DNA of 64,000 bases, taken from assembly GCF_012584445.1 (NCBI RefSeq), contig NZ_JABAHI010000006.1, forward strand, positions 1 to 64,000, written 5' to 3'. This document shows positions 16,311-27,393 of the stretch, piece after piece. The notes under the pieces were generated by a model. It ran no database searches and had not been told where the DNA came from. It worked only from the letters and a program-made list of their open reading frames with translations. Every line of letters starts with the position of its first letter. The stretch's first letter is position 1. The position numbers were made by a program, and so were the translations under genes. This DNA is from Olsenella sp. KGMB02461 (lineage in GTDB: Bacteria; Actinomycetota; Coriobacteriia; Coriobacteriales; Atopobiaceae).

Positions 16311-16811
16311 ATGACCCAGTCCTACCCTATGCAAATGAAGCATCGCGAACTCTCCCGCCAAGAGGCCTTTGAGATTTTGGAAGAGGGCGAGTTTGCCACC
16401 ATCTCCACCGTAGACCCCGACGGCACCCCCTACGGCGTCCCGGCTTCCTACGTGATGATGGACGAGAAGCTCTACATTCACACCGGCAAGCGCCCCGGCC
16501 ACAAGATCGATGACTTCACCCATGACAGCCGCGTATGCGTCTCTGTGGCCTCAGAGCTGGAACCCATCTACGAGGACACCTTCTTCACCACCCGCTTCGC
16601 CTCCGCCATCGCCACCGGCCGCATCTCGCGGATAGAAGATCGAGTAACCATCAAACAGGTGCTCGCGAAACTCTGCATGAAGTACTGCCCGCAGTTCAAA
16701 AAGGAGATTGGCGGCGCCATCGAGCGCGAGCTGGACGTCACCGATATCTGGGTGGTGGAATTCGACGAGGTGCGCGGCAAAGCGGGACGACGATTGAAGA
16801 GGCAGTCTTAG
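16311..16811 (+). CDS. Pyridoxamine 5'-phosphate oxidase family protein (NimA-like)
   Basis: A 166-residue FMN-binding split-barrel protein. The N-terminal half has the family pattern: a short helix (REAFEILEEG in style), FATISTVDPDGTPYGVP, then SYVMMDEKLYIHTGKRPGHK. Relatives include nitroimidazole resistance proteins and flavin-dependent reductases; the substrate is unknown. A paralogue with the same layout lies at 25460-25960. The start is ATG 16311 behind CAGGAGGC. Confidence 0.85.
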   Translation: MTQSYPMQMKHRELSRQEAFEILEEGEFATISTVDPDGTPYGVPASYVMMDEKLYIHTGKRPGHKIDDFTHDSRVCVSVASELEPIYEDTFFTTRFASAIATGRISRIEDRVTIKQVLAKLCMKYCPQFKKEIGGAIERELDVTDIWVVEFDEVRGKAGRRLKRQS

Positions 16812-16840
16812 CCGAGAAACCCCGGCAACCGGCAGCAGAA

Positions 16841-16877
16841 AACGTCCAGTAGAAGCTAGATGCTCCTACTGGACGTT
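16841..16877 (-). terminator. Terminator between convergent genes
   Basis: AACGTCCAGTAG and CTACTGGACGTT form a 12-bp perfect stem around a 13-base loop. The run TTTTC follows on the minus strand, so it chiefly ends the surface-protein gene at 16912. It may also serve the plus-strand gene ending at 16811. Confidence 0.7.
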
Positions 16878-16911
16878 GAACTAATCATGGACATCGTGCA
16901 AAACTCATTAA

Positions 16912-19494
16912 CTATATTACCTTGACTTTGCAGTATCTTTTGAAGCCACCGATATTGCATATTATATTGGCTTCACCCGGTTTACATGCTGTAACGGCTC
17001 CAGTATCTAAGTCCACTTCAGCCACTTGCCATGCACTGCTAGTCCAAGTTGGCGAGGTCATGTTCAATAGTTCTGCTCCCGAGTTCTCCAGTTCGTCAAT
17101 ATCGTTATCTTGGGTCAAATGATAGGTTTGCCCAACGCGTAAAGTCAAATCTGAATTAGAGATTCTCAAAGGGTAAGGCATAATCTCACATTTTCCTATA
17201 CTTACATTTGGCCGAATGACTTCCCATGTGTGCCCCGATATACCACATACCTCTACTCTTCCAGAAAGCACTTCCAATGTTGCTGGTCCAGGATTCTCAG
17301 ACCATCCATCTATTGACCCGCAAAACTCAGCTCCGCCGCATAGCTGGTCATCCTCATAGCCACCAGTTTCTCTTACGAGGGTGTCTTCAGTGGCACAGTA
17401 TTCGATCGTGCCATAAGATTCTGCCGCACTTACTGTGATGCTTTGCCCGGCATACAGATAAAATGGCTTTGCCAAATGCTCAGTGGCCAAGATCCCAGGC
17501 TCTGGATCTTCAATCCATTCTATCTCACTCCCGTATCCCTCATCTTCTGGCTCAACGAAATAGCCTCCTTCGACCTTGTTCTCATCGCCTGCATCACCAG
17601 GGTTGGGCTTCTCAGGGTCAGGCTCCTCTGGCTCAGGCTTATCCTCCGACTTAACATAGGTACACTTGTCCACCAACTTGCCATCCTCAAAGTGCAGTTT
17701 TGCATGCATTGGCGAGTTTTTCTCTGTCCATATTTTTTTGTTCCAAGATAGGTGGGCTTTTTTTAGCCAATCAGTATGTTTTCCAACAGTAATGTCAGCA
17801 ACTAGATCAACATTGAGATTTGAACATATCATACCGTTCTCACGTATGTCGACCATGCCGGGTGAAAGTTGTGGGCCGGCTTTGCCCATCATGTCCGCGA
17901 CTTCAACTTTTAGCACCTTATAAGTCGCATCAATACCTAGCTGAATACTAACTTTACCTTCAAGCTTCGCATCGACATCCATTTGATTTGCCAAACTATC
18001 ATTGACAACTTTATTACCATTGTATTTTATGCCGAGATACGAGTTGGATTTGGCGGAAATCTTCGCCTTCCCTGAGATGGAAGGAACCAGATAAATATCT
18101 ACAATCACCTTGCCTACGGGCTTCACGGGAAATGGAATGTGACCTAGAGGGATTTCGACCTCGTTTTTAATAGCCAACGACCCCTCGAGTTCTTCCTCTC
18201 CTCCTACTCCAACCTTAAAATCCTTAACTCCGTGCTTCCAGTCCCACTTAAATTTATACTTCACATAGGGCCGATAGGAAACAGTAAAATCTCCGCTGCC
18301 ATATTGCCCAATCTTCTTATCTAATTTGAACTTTAGCTTGCCTAGATCATACTCATCTTTTTTACTGTCTTCATCTTTCCAGCTGCTGCTGCCATCACCA
18401 CCGGAGTCACCACGTGCTGGGGCTTTCTTGAGCTCTGACATGGGAGCTTCATCTGCATTCGCCAGCTCGACGTCTTCCGCCAATTCGATTTGATCAGCAG
18501 AAACTTCCGACACTGTCTCGTCGATGTCGATATCCTCCACTGCAAAGGCCAAGTTATCGGCAGAGGTCACTGTCACGACGGTAACACCAGCGCCTTTGGA
18601 CACCGATGTAACGGTACCCATCAGTGCATCAAGCTCGTCATCTGCAATCTCAAGGACAATCTTGTCGCCAATCTGCACCTCCCTGCCGGAAGTGTTCTGC
18701 GCGTCGGTAAAGCTGTAGGTGCCCTCATCCTCTTCATAGCCCTTGATCACGATCACGTCGTTGCGGTAAACGACACCATCGCTGTCACCAGGGTTCTCGG
18801 GCAAGCTGCAAGTCACACTGACAGACACATACTCGGTCTTTCCATTGACACTGAGCTCGAAGCTCGCTGATGCTGGCTCAGCCTCCTTGGCCATAGCCGG
18901 GGTAACCGTAAAGCATGAGATGCCGAAGGAAAGGCCGAGCACAAGCATCACTGAGAAAAGTTGTCCTATTTTTCCTTTTTTGGCAAGTACGACCACCAAC
19001 GCCCCTGAGATCACCAACACACCCGAGGACATGACTACAAAGGCTGTGCCTTGGACACGGTCGCCGGTCTCAGGCACCACCGTCTTTGAATTGGTGCCGT
19101 AGCTGACTGGGGTCACTGTGTTCGCAGTCTCGCCACCGGCAGGGGCGAGAGCCACCACCTCTAGACTGACGGTCTTGGTCTCGCCAGGGGCGATGTCGCC
19201 CAACTCGTCAGCGAGCACTTGTCCATCCATCTCCTTGAGGGAGTCAGGCAACGTGACGTGATATGCTGAGGCGCTGGCAACATCCGATCCTGTGTTCTTA
19301 ACGGTCACGGTGATGAAGACCGTATCCCCTTCATAATACTCACCCCTGTCGGCAGTCAGAGTCACCTCCAAAGGTGTAGCCGCCTCAGCGAAGGCACTCT
19401 TGGGTGTCGCCGCTACCACTGCCATGAACAAAAGTACGAGGGTCGCTAGTTTAACCACTAAGACCCAACTCATAGGTTTTTGTCGTCTGGCCAT
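16912..19494 (-). CDS. Large surface protein with internal sorting-type signal and second signal sequence
   Basis: 860 residues. Residues 1-36 form a signal peptide (cleavage after Ala-Phe-Ala). Residues 40-135 look like a CARDB/DUF11-type beta-sandwich. Then comes VPETGD at 140-145, a hydrophobic helix (about 150-170) and KKGK: a complete sortase-type signal, but internal. A second signal-like segment follows (178-197, ending Ala-Met-Ala at 202). The rest is exported-type: an acidic region, Lys/Tyr-rich beta strands, a Pro/Glu linker near 620, and a C-terminal Big2-like domain ending in CKVKVI. No anchor lies at the true C-terminus. It may be a hairpin-anchored protein or a natural fusion of two secreted proteins. 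Function unknown. Confidence 0.75.
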   Translation of the reverse strand: MARRQKPMSWVLVVKLATLVLLFMAVVAATPKSAFAEAATPLEVTLTADRGEYYEGDTVFITVTVKNTGSDVASASAYHVTLPDSLKEMDGQVLADELGDIAPGETKTVSLEVVALAPAGGETANTVTPVSYGTNSKTVVPETGDRVQGTAFVVMSSGVLVISGALVVVLAKKGKIGQLFSVMLVLGLSFGISCFTVTPAMAKEAEPASASFELSVNGKTEYVSVSVTCSLPENPGDSDGVVYRNDVIVIKGYEEDEGTYSFTDAQNTSGREVQIGDKIVLEIADDELDALMGTVTSVSKGAGVTVVTVTSADNLAFAVEDIDIDETVSEVSADQIELAEDVELANADEAPMSELKKAPARGDSGGDGSSSWKDEDSKKDEYDLGKLKFKLDKKIGQYGSGDFTVSYRPYVKYKFKWDWKHGVKDFKVGVGGEEELEGSLAIKNEVEIPLGHIPFPVKPVGKVIVDIYLVPSISGKAKISAKSNSYLGIKYNGNKVVNDSLANQMDVDAKLEGKVSIQLGIDATYKVLKVEVADMMGKAGPQLSPGMVDIRENGMICSNLNVDLVADITVGKHTDWLKKAHLSWNKKIWTEKNSPMHAKLHFEDGKLVDKCTYVKSEDKPEPEEPDPEKPNPGDAGDENKVEGGYFVEPEDEGYGSEIEWIEDPEPGILATEHLAKPFYLYAGQSITVSAAESYGTIEYCATEDTLVRETGGYEDDQLCGGAEFCGSIDGWSENPGPATLEVLSGRVEVCGISGHTWEVIRPNVSIGKCEIMPYPLRISNSDLTLRVGQTYHLTQDNDIDELENSGAELLNMTSPTWTSSAWQVAEVDLDTGAVTACKPGEANIICNIGGFKRYCKVKVI

Positions 19495-19692
19495 CTCATC
19501 TCCGTTTCACACCAAGATTCCTTGCTCTGGGATCCTTGCGCGTAGGTAAAGACTCCCCTATTTAAATTGCCTCAAGCCTGACAATCACTTCCTTGGATAA
19601 ATCATTACTCATCTAGTTTCATATCTAAATAAGCAAGAATCTTCTCCTTTACCGGACGACGCTCTGGCCCATGTCTTATAGACACGGCTGGA

Positions 19693-20403
19693 TTACCTGA
19701 ACACCACATCGTCTCCCAGGCAGGAGTCTTCTGACTGTGCAGGGGCTTCCTGTGAAGAACCTTGCTGAGACTGTGGTGCGCTCTTGGCGGCTTGACCCTC
19801 AGCGGCAGCCTGCTCGGCAGCCCGTTGCTCAGCTTCCGCCTGCTCAGCTGCAGCTTGTTCCGCAGCGGCTTTCTCAGCGGCTGCCTGCTCAGCGGCAGCC
19901 TGCTCAGCTGCTGCTTGAACCAGCTTTTGCTCATCTTCCAAGGTGGAAATATCCGTGCCTTCATCATCCTGATAGACCAGATAAGCAAGGCCATCAGAAA
20001 GCTGGAGAACGCCCGATTCGATCTTGGAGAGGTCCAATCTGTGGAGCACGTACTCACTCCCCTCCACGGTAAGCGAGACGTCATAGGTGCAGTCTGCTAC
20101 AGGCAGCCCTAGTTCGAAGGTCTCGTTAGATTCGATGGGACCTTCTGAACCTAGCAAGTCATCACAAAAGGCTTCGTCCTGAGAACCTTTGAACGCCATG
20201 GAAGTAATGGCTGCGTCCATGGCGTTGGTAAGCTGCACTTTCATCTGGGTGCCCTGAGTGTCCCCCACTTGACGTACTACTGCTTCCGCCTGACTCTCAG
20301 GCTCGACTGTCGATTGAGGTGTCGACACTCCGCAGGCAGCCATCCAAGGAGTTGCAAGCACCAAGACCAGCATGTAACCCACCATTTTGATCTTCCTGTT
20401 CAT
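19693..20403 (-). CDS. Lipoprotein with Ala-Ala-Ala-Glu-Gln repeats
   Basis: 236 residues. A lipoprotein signal (MAAC, Cys near residue 24) precedes a 130-residue globular domain. About nine imperfect copies of the pentapeptide AAAEQ (roughly residues 163-205) then probably form a single long helix or coiled coil. The tail is Ser/Gln-rich with a Cys and no membrane anchor. The repeats are encoded by 15-base units, prone to length change. Family not recognised; the surface location follows from the lipobox. Confidence 0.75.
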   Translation of the reverse strand: MNRKIKMVGYMLVLVLATPWMAACGVSTPQSTVEPESQAEAVVRQVGDTQGTQMKVQLTNAMDAAITSMAFKGSQDEAFCDDLLGSEGPIESNETFELGLPVADCTYDVSLTVEGSEYVLHRLDLSKIESGVLQLSDGLAYLVYQDDEGTDISTLEDEQKLVQAAAEQAAAEQAAAEKAAAEQAAAEQAEAEQRAAEQAAAEGQAAKSAPQSQQGSSQEAPAQSEDSCLGDDVVFR

Positions 20404-20489
20404 GAAACGTCCTCTCTATCAAATTCGATTTCTTGCAATTGATGACGCCTGGGTTGCATAGGCGCAAAAACCAAAGTAGCTGGCTTGAT

Positions 20490-21980
20490 CTAAGGCACGA
20501 CGACACTACACCCCTTGAGCTCCAGGGTCTGAGATCTATAAGTCACCGCTAGACTGATGGACTGGCCGGGTGCCACTGCGCTTTTAGAAACATTTGCTAC
20601 AAAGCCATAGTCTGAGCCGGGCTCACCTTCCTCTTCATCTGCAAGGATGGTGTACCAGAAGGCTTCGCGCCACTCAGTATTTAAAGGACCTGCGAGCCCT
20701 AGATACACGGACTCGCTCCCTTGTCCCCAATCGTTTGGCAGTCTTCCAGAGATGCGCCAGTAGGGTCCGTTGTCCTCTATCTGCACGGACACATCTGCAT
20801 TCTGACTGCCATCCATCACTAAAGCCCTGCGGGGTGCCTCCATAATGGGTGGCGTCGTGGCGAAGAAGGAGAGATGACGTTCTGCCCTCTCCACCAGGAC
20901 TGCGGTAGCCCCTTCCCGGGAGACTGCCCCCAAGTCGTAGGGTACAAGCTTTGAGAAGAAGGCCTGGTGATAGGCAGTGGCCAAGAACGGCACCAATGCA
21001 TTGCCAAAGGAATCTCGATAGGCCACCAGCGACCCTGACATTCCTTTGTCCTGCGAATGAGTGGCTATGGTTGCATCAGTGGCAACCGCACCTTTAACCC
21101 AGTCGAACCGTCGAGCCTGTTCATACACCTCCACGGGTTCGGGAGTACGACCAACCGGATAGAGCATAGCCTCCAGATCACCCACAAAATTGGTGTCTTG
21201 GCTCACGGCGCCCGTCGAATAGTCCAGATGAGATTGTGCGAGTTTCTCAGCAATAGCACAAAAACCCAGATAAGCACCTTGGGTGTTCCAATGGCTGTCA
21301 GTTTTGAGGTAGAGTTCGCTCTTGGAATCACCAAGCACTTGGAAGAGGTCCACATACTGGACACCGCGATCATCCAAGCGCTCCTTGAGGCGGTCCCAGT
21401 TGCCAGCACCCTCACCGGGCAAATAATAGTAAGGCATGTACCTGCCGTAGAGCGAGTTCTTATTGGGTGCCACCGCGAGCACGAACCGGGCACCCTGAGA
21501 CTCCACATACTCCTGCATCAATGCGAGATTGAAGGCGGCGTTATCCAAAGCTCGGTCTGAGAGCGGATTTGAGTGCTGATAGTCTGCCAAGGTCCCCCCA
21601 TAAAAGAGATAGCCTTCCCTCCCAACGATCACCTGGGTGGTTGGAGAGGTAACCAGAAGACTCGACTGCAGGTAGGAGTTCACCGTGATAAGCTGCTGCC
21701 GAAAGGCAAAATGGTCGTTGAACCAGTCACCCCACTGGGCTAGAAAACCCACATTGGCATGGCCGTCCAGCACCGGCTGAGGGTATTCATGTAGCTCCTG
21801 CAGCTCCAACGACTCATCTTGTGGCGCCAGGGGCATACACAAAAAAAGAGACGCGCACAGCAGGAGCACGCAGGCGACAAAAAGCACCGACGCTGCCTGT
21901 GCCAGTTTGGAGGGCAGAGCCGTTCCAGACAGATCGTCATGACTGTCTTGGATTGCTTTGAAGTGTTTCGGACAGCTCAC
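20490..21980 (-). CDS. AlgJ/AlgX-like SGNH hydrolase-family acetylation protein
   Basis: 496 residues. An N-terminal membrane segment (about residues 28-52) anchors an extracytoplasmic SGNH-like domain. The Asp-His pair is in KTDSHWNTQGAY (near 225) and the Ser nucleophile in YRDSFGNAL (near 320). The C-terminal 110 residues form a beta-rich extra domain. AlgJ/AlgX-type proteins move acetyl groups onto exported polysaccharide with an AlgI-like MBOAT partner, which is the next gene upstream (stop at 21997, 17 bases away). The start is GTG 21980 behind GGAGG. The target glycan is unknown. Confidence 0.85.
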   Translation of the reverse strand: MSCPKHFKAIQDSHDDLSGTALPSKLAQAASVLFVACVLLLCASLFLCMPLAPQDESLELQELHEYPQPVLDGHANVGFLAQWGDWFNDHFAFRQQLITVNSYLQSSLLVTSPTTQVIVGREGYLFYGGTLADYQHSNPLSDRALDNAAFNLALMQEYVESQGARFVLAVAPNKNSLYGRYMPYYYLPGEGAGNWDRLKERLDDRGVQYVDLFQVLGDSKSELYLKTDSHWNTQGAYLGFCAIAEKLAQSHLDYSTGAVSQDTNFVGDLEAMLYPVGRTPEPVEVYEQARRFDWVKGAVATDATIATHSQDKGMSGSLVAYRDSFGNALVPFLATAYHQAFFSKLVPYDLGAVSREGATAVLVERAERHLSFFATTPPIMEAPRRALVMDGSQNADVSVQIEDNGPYWRISGRLPNDWGQGSESVYLGLAGPLNTEWREAFWYTILADEEEGEPGSDYGFVANVSKSAVAPGQSISLAVTYRSQTLELKGCSVVVP

Positions 21981-21996
21981 ATCAACCTCCTATCCA

Positions 21997-23397
21997 TCAG
22001 AACCTGAAATAAATGAATGGGTTGTAGGCACCGCTGGAAAGCACGGTGATGGAGAAAACCATCAACACTAAAGCTCCTCCATAGGAGGCTATCTGCCAAG
22101 CCGATTGTACTTTTGATGTCTTAGCTTCAATCAGATGGGACATCCACTGGGTAACCGGAGCACTGAAAGCCAAGCCCAATACCAGCGAACCCAAAAACAT
22201 GGGGGTAAGCGGTGTCATGAACACCAGCATGACAGACGGAGAGAAGTCCCAGGTCCATAGCATATGGGAGATTACCTCGCCTGCCTGAGCCAGGGTGTCA
22301 GCCCTGAAAAGCACGAACGCCAGACAGACCACCAGCAAGCAGTAAAGGTGGCTGAGCCATCTGGGCAGCTTCTTCACGGGAACGGCCTGCTCAAGCATGA
22401 GAAAGCCGCCATGGATAAGGCCCCACAACACGAAAGTCCAACTGGCTCCATGCCAAAGGCCGCAGAGAACAAACACCGTGAGCTTGTTAAGCATTGTGCG
22501 AGCATGGCCGCGACGGTTCCCACCCAAGGGAATGTATAAATACTCTTTGAACCACGTGGAAAGCGAGATGTGCCATCTGTGCCAGAACTCTTGGATAGAA
22601 GTAGCTACATAGGGGTAATTAAAGTTCTCTTTAAAATGAAAGCCGAACATGTGCCCCAGTCCGATGGCCATGTCACTGTAACCCGAGAAGTCGAAATAGA
22701 TTTGCAGCATGTAGGCAATGGCTGCCATCCAAGCCGCCAGAGCGTTGAGACGTGTGGGATCTGAAAAGTAATAGTCGACTGCCACTGCCATAGCGTTGGC
22801 TATGAGGACCTTCTTTGCCAATCCAACACAGAAGCGCCTGAGTCCCAGCGCAACCCCCTCTGGGGTAGTACTACGATTCCGAAGCTCTTGGGTGATGTCG
22901 TGGTATTTCACGATAGGACCTGCGATGAGCTGGGGAAAGAACGAAACGTACAGAAGCACGACAGCAAAGTTCTTTTCGGCAGCCACTTCGCCTCGATAAA
23001 CATCGATAACGTAGGAGAGCGCCTGGAAGGTAAAGAACGAAATGCCAATAGGCAATGCTAGTCCCAAGGGAGGTATAGACATACCCAAAAACATATTGGC
23101 ACCATCAATGAACATATCGGCGTATTTAAAGATGCCAAGGATGCCGAGGTTTCCCACAACCGCCATCGCCAAGAATAACCTGCGATGCGATCTGCGGCTG
23201 ATAGCCAAACCCGCAAGCCAGTTGCAAAGCGTGGAGGCAATCATGAGCAGCACGTAGACCGGCTCTCCATAACTGTAGAACAGCAGGCTGGCTACTAATA
23301 GCAGCGCATTTTTAGCAGCCATTCTCGGGAAAGCCTGATGAAGCAGGAACACCATTGGGAGGAAGACACTTAGAAATACCAGGGAGCTGAAGACCAT
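21997..23397 (-). CDS. MBOAT O-acyltransferase, AlgI-like
   Basis: 466 residues with about eleven hydrophobic helices. The family core is clear: FWHRWHISLSTWFKEYLYIP near residue 275, followed by LWHGASWTFVLWGLIHG near 318 with the catalytic His. AlgI-like MBOAT proteins carry acetyl groups across the membrane for O-acetylation of extracellular polysaccharide or peptidoglycan. The AlgJ-like gene follows on the same transcript. No polysaccharide synthase lies nearby, so the acceptor is open. Confidence 0.92.
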   Translation of the reverse strand: MVFSSLVFLSVFLPMVFLLHQAFPRMAAKNALLLVASLLFYSYGEPVYVLLMIASTLCNWLAGLAISRRSHRRLFLAMAVVGNLGILGIFKYADMFIDGANMFLGMSIPPLGLALPIGISFFTFQALSYVIDVYRGEVAAEKNFAVVLLYVSFFPQLIAGPIVKYHDITQELRNRSTTPEGVALGLRRFCVGLAKKVLIANAMAVAVDYYFSDPTRLNALAAWMAAIAYMLQIYFDFSGYSDMAIGLGHMFGFHFKENFNYPYVATSIQEFWHRWHISLSTWFKEYLYIPLGGNRRGHARTMLNKLTVFVLCGLWHGASWTFVLWGLIHGGFLMLEQAVPVKKLPRWLSHLYCLLVVCLAFVLFRADTLAQAGEVISHMLWTWDFSPSVMLVFMTPLTPMFLGSLVLGLAFSAPVTQWMSHLIEAKTSKVQSAWQIASYGGALVLMVFSITVLSSGAYNPFIYFRF

Positions 23398-23472
23398 GGC
23401 TGAGTATTATTCCTTTGCATTGGTTGTCGTGAAACGCTGTCATTGGTGCGTTTGGCCTATAGAGAACAGGCT

Positions 23473-25173
23473 TCAGCGAAGGTAGTAAATCGGTGCTGTG
23501 GCATAGGTTGTCATGTAGAAGTTGCGATTTGGATATGCATGCTGCATGTCAGGGTCAACCACATAGGTCTGTCCATTGAGGTAGAGTTCCGTCCACCCAT
23601 GGACCGCAGGGCCTCGACTAAGCATCACCGAGCCAGCATGGACATCGATACTGTAGCCCAGGCCTCTAGCGAGCCAACAGAAGAGAGACGCATAGCGGTA
23701 GCAGTTGCCCCTACCATTGCGGTACATCTCCAATGCGAAGGGGCCCGACCAATCTCCTGTGGGGTTCGTTGAGCCTTTTTGATAAGGAAAGCTGGCAACG
23801 TAGTCATAAGCACGCTTAAGAGCCCCGTCAGTATGTCCTCCGAGCTTTGTGACGATGATGGACTCCATTGTGTCGTGAAGCTCGCTGTTTGCATAATTGT
23901 CCATGGCGCCGCTAGGCTTGAGATAATACCAACGCCCTTCCTCGTGGACCCATTGGCCGGCACGCATTGCGCCGGAGTCTTCCAGAAGGTACCAAACGCC
24001 GCCCACACGCTGCCAACCGGTGGCCATGGCGCCACTGGGATACAGGTAATACCAGTGACTACCGACCCATACCCAACCGGTGGCCATGGCGCCGCTGCCT
24101 GTCAGGTAATACCAGGTATCACCCAGCTTGAGCCAACCGGTGGCCATGGCACCACTTTCCGTCAGGTAGTACCAATGACTGCCATCCCATACCCAACCGG
24201 TGGCCATGGCGCCACTGGGATACAGGTAATACCAGTGACTACCGACCCATACCCAACCGGTGGCCATGGCGCCGCTGCCTGTCAGGTAATACCAGGTATC
24301 ACCCAGCTTGAGCCAACCGGTGGCCATGGCACCACTTTCCGTCAGGTAGTACCAATGACTGCCATCCCATACCCAACCGGTGGCCATGGCGCCACTGGGA
24401 TACAGGTAATACCAAATGTCCCCCAGTCTCGCCCATCCGGTACGCATCCAGCCCGCACCGTCGAAAAGATACCAAGTTCCTTGTATCTTCTCCCAGCCAC
24501 CTGAAGTATAGGTGCCGTTGTCATGGCGATACCACCAACGATTCCCGGACTTCATCCAGGCGCCTTTCTGCCCCAACACTCCCACCGAGGCCCGCTCGGC
24601 CTCTGCCCGATCGAACCCTTGTGATATCAAATAGACCTCAATTGCCGCATGAGTATCACCCTTGTGCCCCACATACTCCCCTTTGTGAAGCGCAGCCGCC
24701 ATAGCAGTGGCCTGGCTGTTCCAATCAATCTTCAAGGAATCCACTGCAGCTGTGGCCAAAGCCACTTCAGTATCCTGCGGCTTCAATGCGGCAATGAGCC
24801 CCGATTTTGAATAGGGCCTTGCAGCAAGCAGCTCCGTAGCCTTTTGAGTGTACTGAGTCATAAGTTCTGTCTCAGTAGGCTGCTGAGGTTTGGGGTCTTG
24901 AGGAGTAGGATCTACCTCTTCAGGTATGGTTACCGAAGGGTCATCTGACTCTTCAGGATTTTTTCCTAAAGCCCCAAGATCATCCGCGTTTTCTTGTGAG
25001 CCCTCCTTGTGTTCCGCATCAACAGTTTGAAAGGAGGCGCCAGATGACACTTCTTGATCCGCAGCAGTGGTCTCGCGCGCGAGCAGCGGTGTTGGAATAA
25101 ATAAGACGGCAACCAGTAGAAAAGCAAAGAATCTTTTTGAGTTTCCGTTTTGGACCATTCGCCGCATGCTCAT
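23473..25173 (-). CDS. Secreted repeat protein: Ltp-like domain, cell-wall-binding repeats, transglutaminase-like domain
   Basis: 566 residues. A signal peptide (about 1-33) is followed by an acidic Pro-rich linker and an Ltp-type helical segment (PYSKSGLIAAL ... KIDWNSQATAMAAAL, near 120-160). About eleven 20-residue cell-wall-binding repeats follow (GWxxxGxxWYYLxxSGAMAT, near 205-425). The C-terminal transglutaminase-like domain has Cys in GNCYRYA, His in VHGWTE and Asp in VVDPD. The repeats suggest non-covalent attachment to wall polymers; the last domain may be protease- or amidase-like. Three repeats are exactly duplicated in the DNA, and the promoter contains an 11-base G tract, so both length and expression may vary. 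Confidence 0.88.
   Translation of the reverse strand: MSMRRMVQNGNSKRFFAFLLVAVLFIPTPLLARETTAADQEVSSGASFQTVDAEHKEGSQENADDLGALGKNPEESDDPSVTIPEEVDPTPQDPKPQQPTETELMTQYTQKATELLAARPYSKSGLIAALKPQDTEVALATAAVDSLKIDWNSQATAMAAALHKGEYVGHKGDTHAAIEVYLISQGFDRAEAERASVGVLGQKGAWMKSGNRWWYRHDNGTYTSGGWEKIQGTWYLFDGAGWMRTGWARLGDIWYYLYPSGAMATGWVWDGSHWYYLTESGAMATGWLKLGDTWYYLTGSGAMATGWVWVGSHWYYLYPSGAMATGWVWDGSHWYYLTESGAMATGWLKLGDTWYYLTGSGAMATGWVWVGSHWYYLYPSGAMATGWQRVGGVWYLLEDSGAMRAGQWVHEEGRWYYLKPSGAMDNYANSELHDTMESIIVTKLGGHTDGALKRAYDYVASFPYQKGSTNPTGDWSGPFALEMYRNGRGNCYRYASLFCWLARGLGYSIDVHAGSVMLSRGPAVHGWTELYLNGQTYVVDPDMQHAYPNRNFYMTTYATAPIYYLR
24013..24414. repeat. Tandem 180-bp duplication within the repeat gene
   Basis: Bases 24013-24234 and 24193-24414 are identical over 222 bases, a tandem duplication of a 180-bp unit encoding three 20-residue repeats (GWVWD, GWLKL and GWVWV types). 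Perfect identity at silent positions indicates a recent event. Confidence 0.9.
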
Positions 25174-25239
25174 GACGCCCTCGTTTCATATCGATGTTTA
25201 GTGAATCGAAAGAAAATCCCCTAAATAAAAACACCCTGA

Positions 25240-25266
25240 AAGTTACCCCCCCCCCCGCATTGTCAA
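25240..25266 (-). promoter_or_regulatory. Promoter with poly-G tract in the spacer
   Basis: On the minus strand a perfect -35 box TTGACA (25266-25261) is followed by ATGC, a run of 11 G (25256-25246) and TAACTT (25245-25240) as a candidate -10. The spacer is 15 bp; two more G would give the optimal 17. This is the arrangement by which slippage in homopolymer tracts switches promoters of surface genes elsewhere. The start codon of the downstream gene is 67 bases away. The -10 assignment is tentative. Confidence 0.6.
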
Positions 25267-25358
25267 TGGCTTACAGATTTCGTTTTTGCATAGCCATTTG
25301 TACTAGGTGATGCGTCATATTGTAAAGTTAATGAATTGAATACTGCTAATTCGCATTT

Positions 25359-25381
25359 GGTACTTGCTCTCAGCAAGTACC
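25359..25381. promoter_or_regulatory. Perfect inverted repeat upstream of the NimA-like gene
   Basis: GGTACTTGCT-CTC-AGCAAGTACC has 10-base perfect arms and a 3-base loop. It lies 79 bases upstream of the ATG at 25460 and has no T-run, so an operator is more likely than a terminator. Confidence 0.5.
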
Positions 25382-25459
25382 ATGAGTTCCAATTGGCGAG
25401 ATGCTGTTTGTCTCTTGCTATCATTCACATTGACAATCGGCTATAGAAGGAGGCACTCT

Positions 25460-25960
25460 ATGAACCGGCCGCGTCCCATGCAGCGCAGAGACCGTGAGCT
25501 TTCCCGCGAAGACACTATTGAGATTCTGGAGGCCGGGGGATTCGCCTCCCTTGCCACAGTCGATGCAGATGGCGCTCCCTACGTGATTCCCCTCTCCTAT
25601 GTGATGATGGACGGAAAACTCTATGTGCACACCGGTACCGCCCATGGCCACTTTTATGAGAATGTGATCCGCGACAATCGGGTGTGCTTGACGGTGGTTG
25701 GCGAAGATGCGCCCATTCAGAGGCCTGGCTACGGCGCCACCCGCTTTGCCTCTGTAGTGGCTGCTGGTCGCATCTATAACGTGGACGACCCCGTTCTCTT
25801 CAAGCAAGCCCTGGCAAGATTGGCTCGAAAGTACTGGCCCAAGTTGAGGAAAGAAGTGGGATCTATTATCAACAATCAGCTGGACGTCACTGCCGTGTGG
25901 GCCATTGAGCTCGATGAGGTGAGGGGTAAAGAGCGCCACCGCGACGAGGATGTCCTTTAA
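25460..25960 (+). CDS. Pyridoxamine 5'-phosphate oxidase family protein (NimA-like), paralogue
   Basis: A 166-residue split-barrel flavoprotein closely matching the layout of the protein at 16311-16811: ELSREDTIEILEAG, FASLATVDADGAPYVIPLSYV, MMDGKLYVHTG, and a C-terminal VWAIELDEVRGK. The start is ATG 25460, with AAGGAGG seven bases upstream; the longer frame from 25364 starts inside an inverted repeat. It is divergent from the repeat-protein gene. Substrate unknown. Confidence 0.86.
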   Translation: MNRPRPMQRRDRELSREDTIEILEAGGFASLATVDADGAPYVIPLSYVMMDGKLYVHTGTAHGHFYENVIRDNRVCLTVVGEDAPIQRPGYGATRFASVVAAGRIYNVDDPVLFKQALARLARKYWPKLRKEVGSIINNQLDVTAVWAIELDEVRGKERHRDEDVL

Positions 25961-27118: not shown

Positions 27119-27128
27119 GTACACCCCC

Positions 27129-27393
27129 GTTCTTCTAGACACTCTAAAAGAACAACCAGAGAGAGCAGCTGTTCTCCTAGGCACTCTAAAAGAACAGTTA
27201 TGTGATCCCTCCGTTCTCCTAGGCACTCTAAAAGAACAGTTATGTGATCCCTCCGTTCTTCTAGGCAGCTAAATAGAACCTATTCTGTTCTTTTTAGCTG
27301 CCTAGGAGTCATTGCCGCTTGAAAAGCGTTCTATTTGGAATCTAATAGCCATCACCACTTTGCAAGTTGTTCTCTTAGGTGCCCATCTAGAAC
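27129..27393. repeat. Array of 25-bp imperfect palindromes at 42-bp spacing
   Basis: Four units start at 27129, 27171, 27213 and 27255, exactly 42 bases apart. The consensus is GTTCTYYTAG-N5-CTARRAGAAC, a near-palindrome. The 17-base spacers after units 2 and 3 are identical. A reversed half-matching copy starts at 27287, a weak one at 27328 and a clearer one at 27369, spaced 41 bases. 42 bp is four turns of B-DNA, so units 1-4 face the same side of the helix, as in cooperative operator arrays. It begins 11 bases after the ureohydrolase stop and lies about 445 bases before carA. Spacers are too short and too alike for CRISPR. Confidence 0.75.
27261..27305. other. Long hairpin at the end of the palindrome array
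   Basis: Two 19-base arms (27261-27279 and 27287-27305) pair with one mismatch around a 7-base loop, joining the fourth array unit and the reversed copy. The loop-side arm contains a T-run, so it could end transcription of the ureohydrolase gene or form a cruciform. Confidence 0.55.

Follow-up and report, generated by a model that had tools for sequence, protein, structure and literature searches.

In Olsenella sp. KGMB02461, a G11 tract lies between the −35 and −10 elements of a putative sigma-70-type promoter upstream of a gene for a secreted wall-binding protein, and we consider it likely that this protein is phase-variable through slippage-driven changes in the length of the promoter spacer. 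From the sequence we infer both the length change at this locus and its effect on transcription. The features concerned, within the window (the whole 64-kb stretch of DNA that was analysed), are as follows.

25261–25266, minus strand: −35 element TTGACA, perfect consensus (direct reading)
25246–25256, minus strand: G11 tract within the 15-bp spacer ATGC-G11 (direct reading)
25240–25245, minus strand: −10 element TAACTT, of the TANNNT form (direct reading; G8 followed by TANNNT is over-represented in the family)
25174–25239, minus strand: presumed 5′ leader of 66 nt with ribosome-binding site GAGGG (direct reading)
23473–25173, minus strand: gene for the 566-aa secreted wall-binding protein, with signal peptide, choline-binding-type repeats and C-terminal transglutaminase-like domain (translation and domain search)
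21997–23397, minus strand: MBOAT acyltransferase, DltB-like (TIGR04091, 148 bits, below the cut-off of 375; possibly same transcript)
20490–21980, minus strand: SGNH/AlgX-like acyltransferase (ALGX, DHHW; domain search; possibly same transcript)
19693–20403, minus strand: small secreted protein resembling a lipoprotein, its C-terminal half rich in Ala and Glu (translation; possibly same transcript)
16912–19494, minus strand: 860-aa surface-type protein with DUF11/CARDB-like domain (weak match near the cut-off; transcript membership uncertain)
16810–25468, no strand: lower-GC island of 8.66 kb (GC 51.6%; flanks 60.7 and 58.6%)

Promoter and downstream gene

Read 5′ to 3′ on the minus strand, TTGACA (25266–25261) is followed by ATGC, eleven G residues (25256–25246; C11 on the plus strand) and TAACTT (25245–25240), confirming the layout and the 15-bp spacer given in a preliminary description of this region. 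The −10 element agrees with TATAAT at three of six positions, satisfying the TANNNT form, and is weak by E. coli standards. No other G/C run in the window exceeds 6, and the ATG start codon at 25173 is preceded by GAGGG. A coding-frame switch of the Bifidobacterium breve pilus type was rejected, as the tract ends 72 nt upstream of this ATG.

The 566-aa product contains a hydrophobic N-terminal signal followed by eight choline-binding-type repeats (Choline_bind_1/3, E 1e-52 and 1e-45) and a transglutaminase-like domain (Transglut_core, E 2e-11), bearing out the earlier description of a wall-binding repeat protein; by sequence search, the C-terminal domain had no relative in the PDB. The signal peptide and wall-binding repeats place the protein, by prediction, at the cell surface. 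The locus combines a homopolymer between −35 and −10 with a predicted surface product, as do porA, fetA and opc, for which spacer homopolymer length has been proposed to alter sigma-factor binding (PMC2791445).

By the mechanism that we propose, replication slippage at the poly-G that forms most of the spacer would add or remove G residues and alter the spacing of the two boxes and their relative helical phase, which would change RNA polymerase binding and could produce heritable, reversible expression states of the wall-binding protein. The optimal sigma-70 spacer is 17 bp, which corresponds to G13 at this promoter. Since G11 gives a spacer of 15 bp, the assembled genome probably carries a weak or OFF allele. 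The arithmetic of the preliminary description, that two more G residues would give 17 bp, is right, although the commonest spacer at related sites in assemblies is 19 bp.

Recurrence of the arrangement in Coriobacteriales

Across 397 genomes of the order, which are related and not fully independent, a search for TTGACA, 0 to 12 nt, G8 and TANNNT returned 27 matches, spread over 22 genomes, and none for the reversed pattern, making a chance origin of the target arrangement unlikely. Among 140 genomes of the family, TTGACA was followed by G8 within 10 nt at ten places versus one for the reversed pattern, and five of the ten passed straight into TANNNT, where 1/64 would be expected for each (~2e-7). 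G8TANNNT itself occurred 38 times in the family versus 4 reversed and versus 13 for the composition-matched control G8ATNNNT (p 6e-4); as the matched control yields a third as many, about one-third of these weaker matches may be due to chance. Upstream of 37 of the family tracts, a perfect TTGACA was found five times versus 0.16 expected by shuffling, and matches at 5 or more of its 6 positions ten times versus 2.8 expected. Outside the order, the motif was present in 3 of about 361 genomes sampled from the phylum. Its poly-C version is rarer than the poly-G version, with one site in the genome under study, and the general motif had 27 matches in viral contigs.

The spacers of the 27 order-wide sites were all 15–20 bp long although the pattern allowed 8–20 bp (~1e-9 under a uniform model), with six of 15 bp, none of 16 bp, three each of 17 and 18 bp, twelve of 19 bp and three of 20 bp; an additional site (L060) had a 23-bp spacer. 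Lengths at these loci (L139–L164) peak at 19 and 15 bp with few at 17 bp, and the modal 19-bp spacer comes with G10 across unrelated genera. The 19-bp excess may mean that assemblies mostly catch OFF alleles, or that G-rich spacers favour a longer distance. At 17 of the 27 sites, and at none of 12 control tracts, the next gene encoded a signal-peptide-like or membrane N-terminus (19 of 81 among ordinary genes). Many of the genes downstream of the motif encode long repetitive wall or surface proteins.

Four family matches were rejected as promoter sites. The tract lies in coding sequence at L063 and L067, and L067 (genome G131) consists of tandem cassettes 97–98% identical, each with G9 or G10 inside the open reading frame, an arrangement suggestive of a repeat array that recombines or switches frame. 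At L098 and L112 (genomes G122 and G036), a G9 run occupies signal-peptide codons of a surface protein, where its effect would be translational if anything, likely representing a translational switch in the same family.

By pattern search, the Olsenella genome itself (2.19 Mb in 13 contigs) contains six G/C runs of at least 9, two of them 11 long, and TTGACA lies directly upstream in the right orientation of two of the six (~5e-4 by chance). The second such promoter (G000:C10:136161) reads TTGACA-C9-ATTCAGA-TATTTT with a 16-bp spacer and precedes a gene for a membrane-anchored protein with FIVAR-like matches; a search of this genome for another site with TTGACA, at least six G and TANNNT gave none. 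At this second promoter (L040:5995-6022; G000:C10:136161-136188), TTGACA and its inverse (CATTGACA ... TGTCAATG) bracket the C9 tract and the −10 element as a short inverted repeat.

These counts bear directly on whether G11 could be a chance homopolymer in a real promoter that is not phase-variable. At a GC content of 59%, some G runs as long as this are expected from base composition alone, a promoter with a 15-bp spacer may retain weak activity, and the target tract is known from one allele; however, the oriented TTGACA before two of the six long runs and the recurrence of the arrangement across the order, where control patterns gave zero or nearly so, make this explanation unlikely in our judgement. 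The phase-variable surface-protein reading, which the preliminary description had drawn from one site by analogy, gains support from the same order-wide contrast of 27 versus 0.

Tract lengths and mismatch repair

Tract lengths ranged from G8 to G21 overall, as read from assemblies, which can miscount homopolymers. At the second promoter, the sister species G001 has C7 and a 14-bp spacer versus C9 and 16 bp in the genome under study; across the 1025 bases aligned for promoter and gene, the two differ by 8 substitutions. One genome (G086) contains two copies of a single promoter (L092 and L109) with G16 and G21 and flanks 98.7% identical over 371 bp; the sequences behind the two copies diverge shortly past the start codon. 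At a promoter shared by species G214 and G215, the tract is G9 in the former and G10 in the latter; genomes G236 and G238 both have exactly G10. The C9/C7 and G16/G21 differences at sibling sites, together with the secreted or membrane products, further strengthen the case for phase variation. For the target tract itself, no second allele was found in G001, where the gene is missing, a flank-pattern search of viral contigs gave 0 matches, and a genome-contig scan for the locus returned only two distant PNPOx relatives.

The same lengths weigh on a second explanation, in which the tract is an invariant structural element, forming a stiff spacer of A-like DNA that is selected for its geometry and not for variability. 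The modal 19-bp spacer with G10 in unrelated genera, off the sigma-70 optimum of 17 bp, and the exact G10 in both G236 and G238 would fit such an element, but a fixed element would hold its length, so that the G8–G21 range and the differences between near-identical copies count against it, and we regard it as quite improbable. Least probable of the three is that the true promoter lies elsewhere and the tract acts as an operator or forms part of the control region of the divergently transcribed PNPOx gene: the 286-bp intergenic region does serve two divergent genes and the candidate start position is a predicted one, but no better minus-strand promoter lies nearby (no other sigma-70-like match with a 16–18-bp spacer was found on the minus strand just upstream of the gene), and the tract adjoins TANNNT after a perfect TTGACA, as at 26 other sites.

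Slippage at the spacer, the reading that we prefer, would be raised at such tracts by missing mismatch repair. Neither MutL nor NucS was found above the curated cut-offs in the Olsenella genome and 20 relatives, while control genomes gave matches, suggesting that these 21 genomes lack a known mismatch-repair system.

The lower-GC island and comparison with known systems

The wall-binding protein gene belongs to the lower-GC island (16810–25468), which sits between two PNPOx paralogues and carries the MBOAT/AlgX-like pair and three secreted proteins. The island is missing from the sister genome G001 of the same genus, where its flanks are 77 bp apart. Between 25173 and 16912, five successive genes all lie on the minus strand, separated by gaps of 75, 16, 86 and 198 bp, and the target promoter may drive the island including the MBOAT/AlgX-like genes, which would then possibly be switched along with the wall-binding protein. 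A weak promoter-like match before the MBOAT gene (TTCACG-16-AATAAT, 23433–23406) makes a single transcript uncertain. MBOAT and SGNH-type pairs acylate cell-surface polymers in other bacteria; should the island genes be transcribed together, changes in the tract would switch a surface-modification module rather than a single protein. The small lipoprotein-like protein (19693–20403) had no Pfam match.

The mechanism is of a known kind, while its lineage and extent look new. As in Neisseria opc, porA and fetA, a poly-C or poly-G tract separates the −35 and −10 elements upstream of a surface-protein gene, but here the hosts are Gram-positive Coriobacteriales, the predicted product is a wall-binding transglutaminase-like protein with a possible acyltransferase operon, and the spacers cluster at 15 and 19 bp. 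In the gut actinomycetote Bifidobacterium breve, G11/G12 slippage likewise controls a surface structure, the sortase pili, by switching the reading frame from tracts inside coding sequence; the same paper mentions unpublished G-tracts in promoter spacers (PMC9187656). A study on Gardnerella, which belongs to another order, places most G/C tracts upstream of ORFs, many of them for surface proteins that carry FIVAR-type or comparable domains, with lengths of 9 and 10 that vary between colonies; there, the tracts are described by their position relative to ORFs (PMC11287997). Within the same order as the target, the Eggerthella lenta capsule undergoes surface phase variation by DNA inversion instead of slippage (PMC13174815).

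Open-access literature on the order together with phase variation or homopolymers returned only Eggerthella inversions and retroelements, an absence that is no proof, and the order-wide set of such promoters, which no paper found there describes, looks new. Taking these observations together, we lean, by a modest degree, towards a broader proposal, that Coriobacteriales use a hitherto undescribed order-wide set of poly-G/poly-C spacer promoters to switch secreted and wall proteins stochastically, favoured by the absence of MutSL-type and NucS repair, and that such control extends here to an entire acquired surface island with its polymer-acylation pair. Were this correct, the order of Lancefieldella and its relatives, a major lineage of the gut and mouth, would diversify its surface within clonal populations via promoter slippage, with effects on adhesion, immune recognition and phage sensitivity. 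Its reference genomes would then represent frozen ON or OFF states, making expression predictions from single genomes unreliable for such genes.

Beyond the island, an intergenic repeat element with TTCTCCTAGG-type inverted units occurs at 27122–27238 in the window and at three other places in the genome (G000:C12:1252936, 1130629 and 1281526); it is also present in G001, and one copy adjoins a G10 run.
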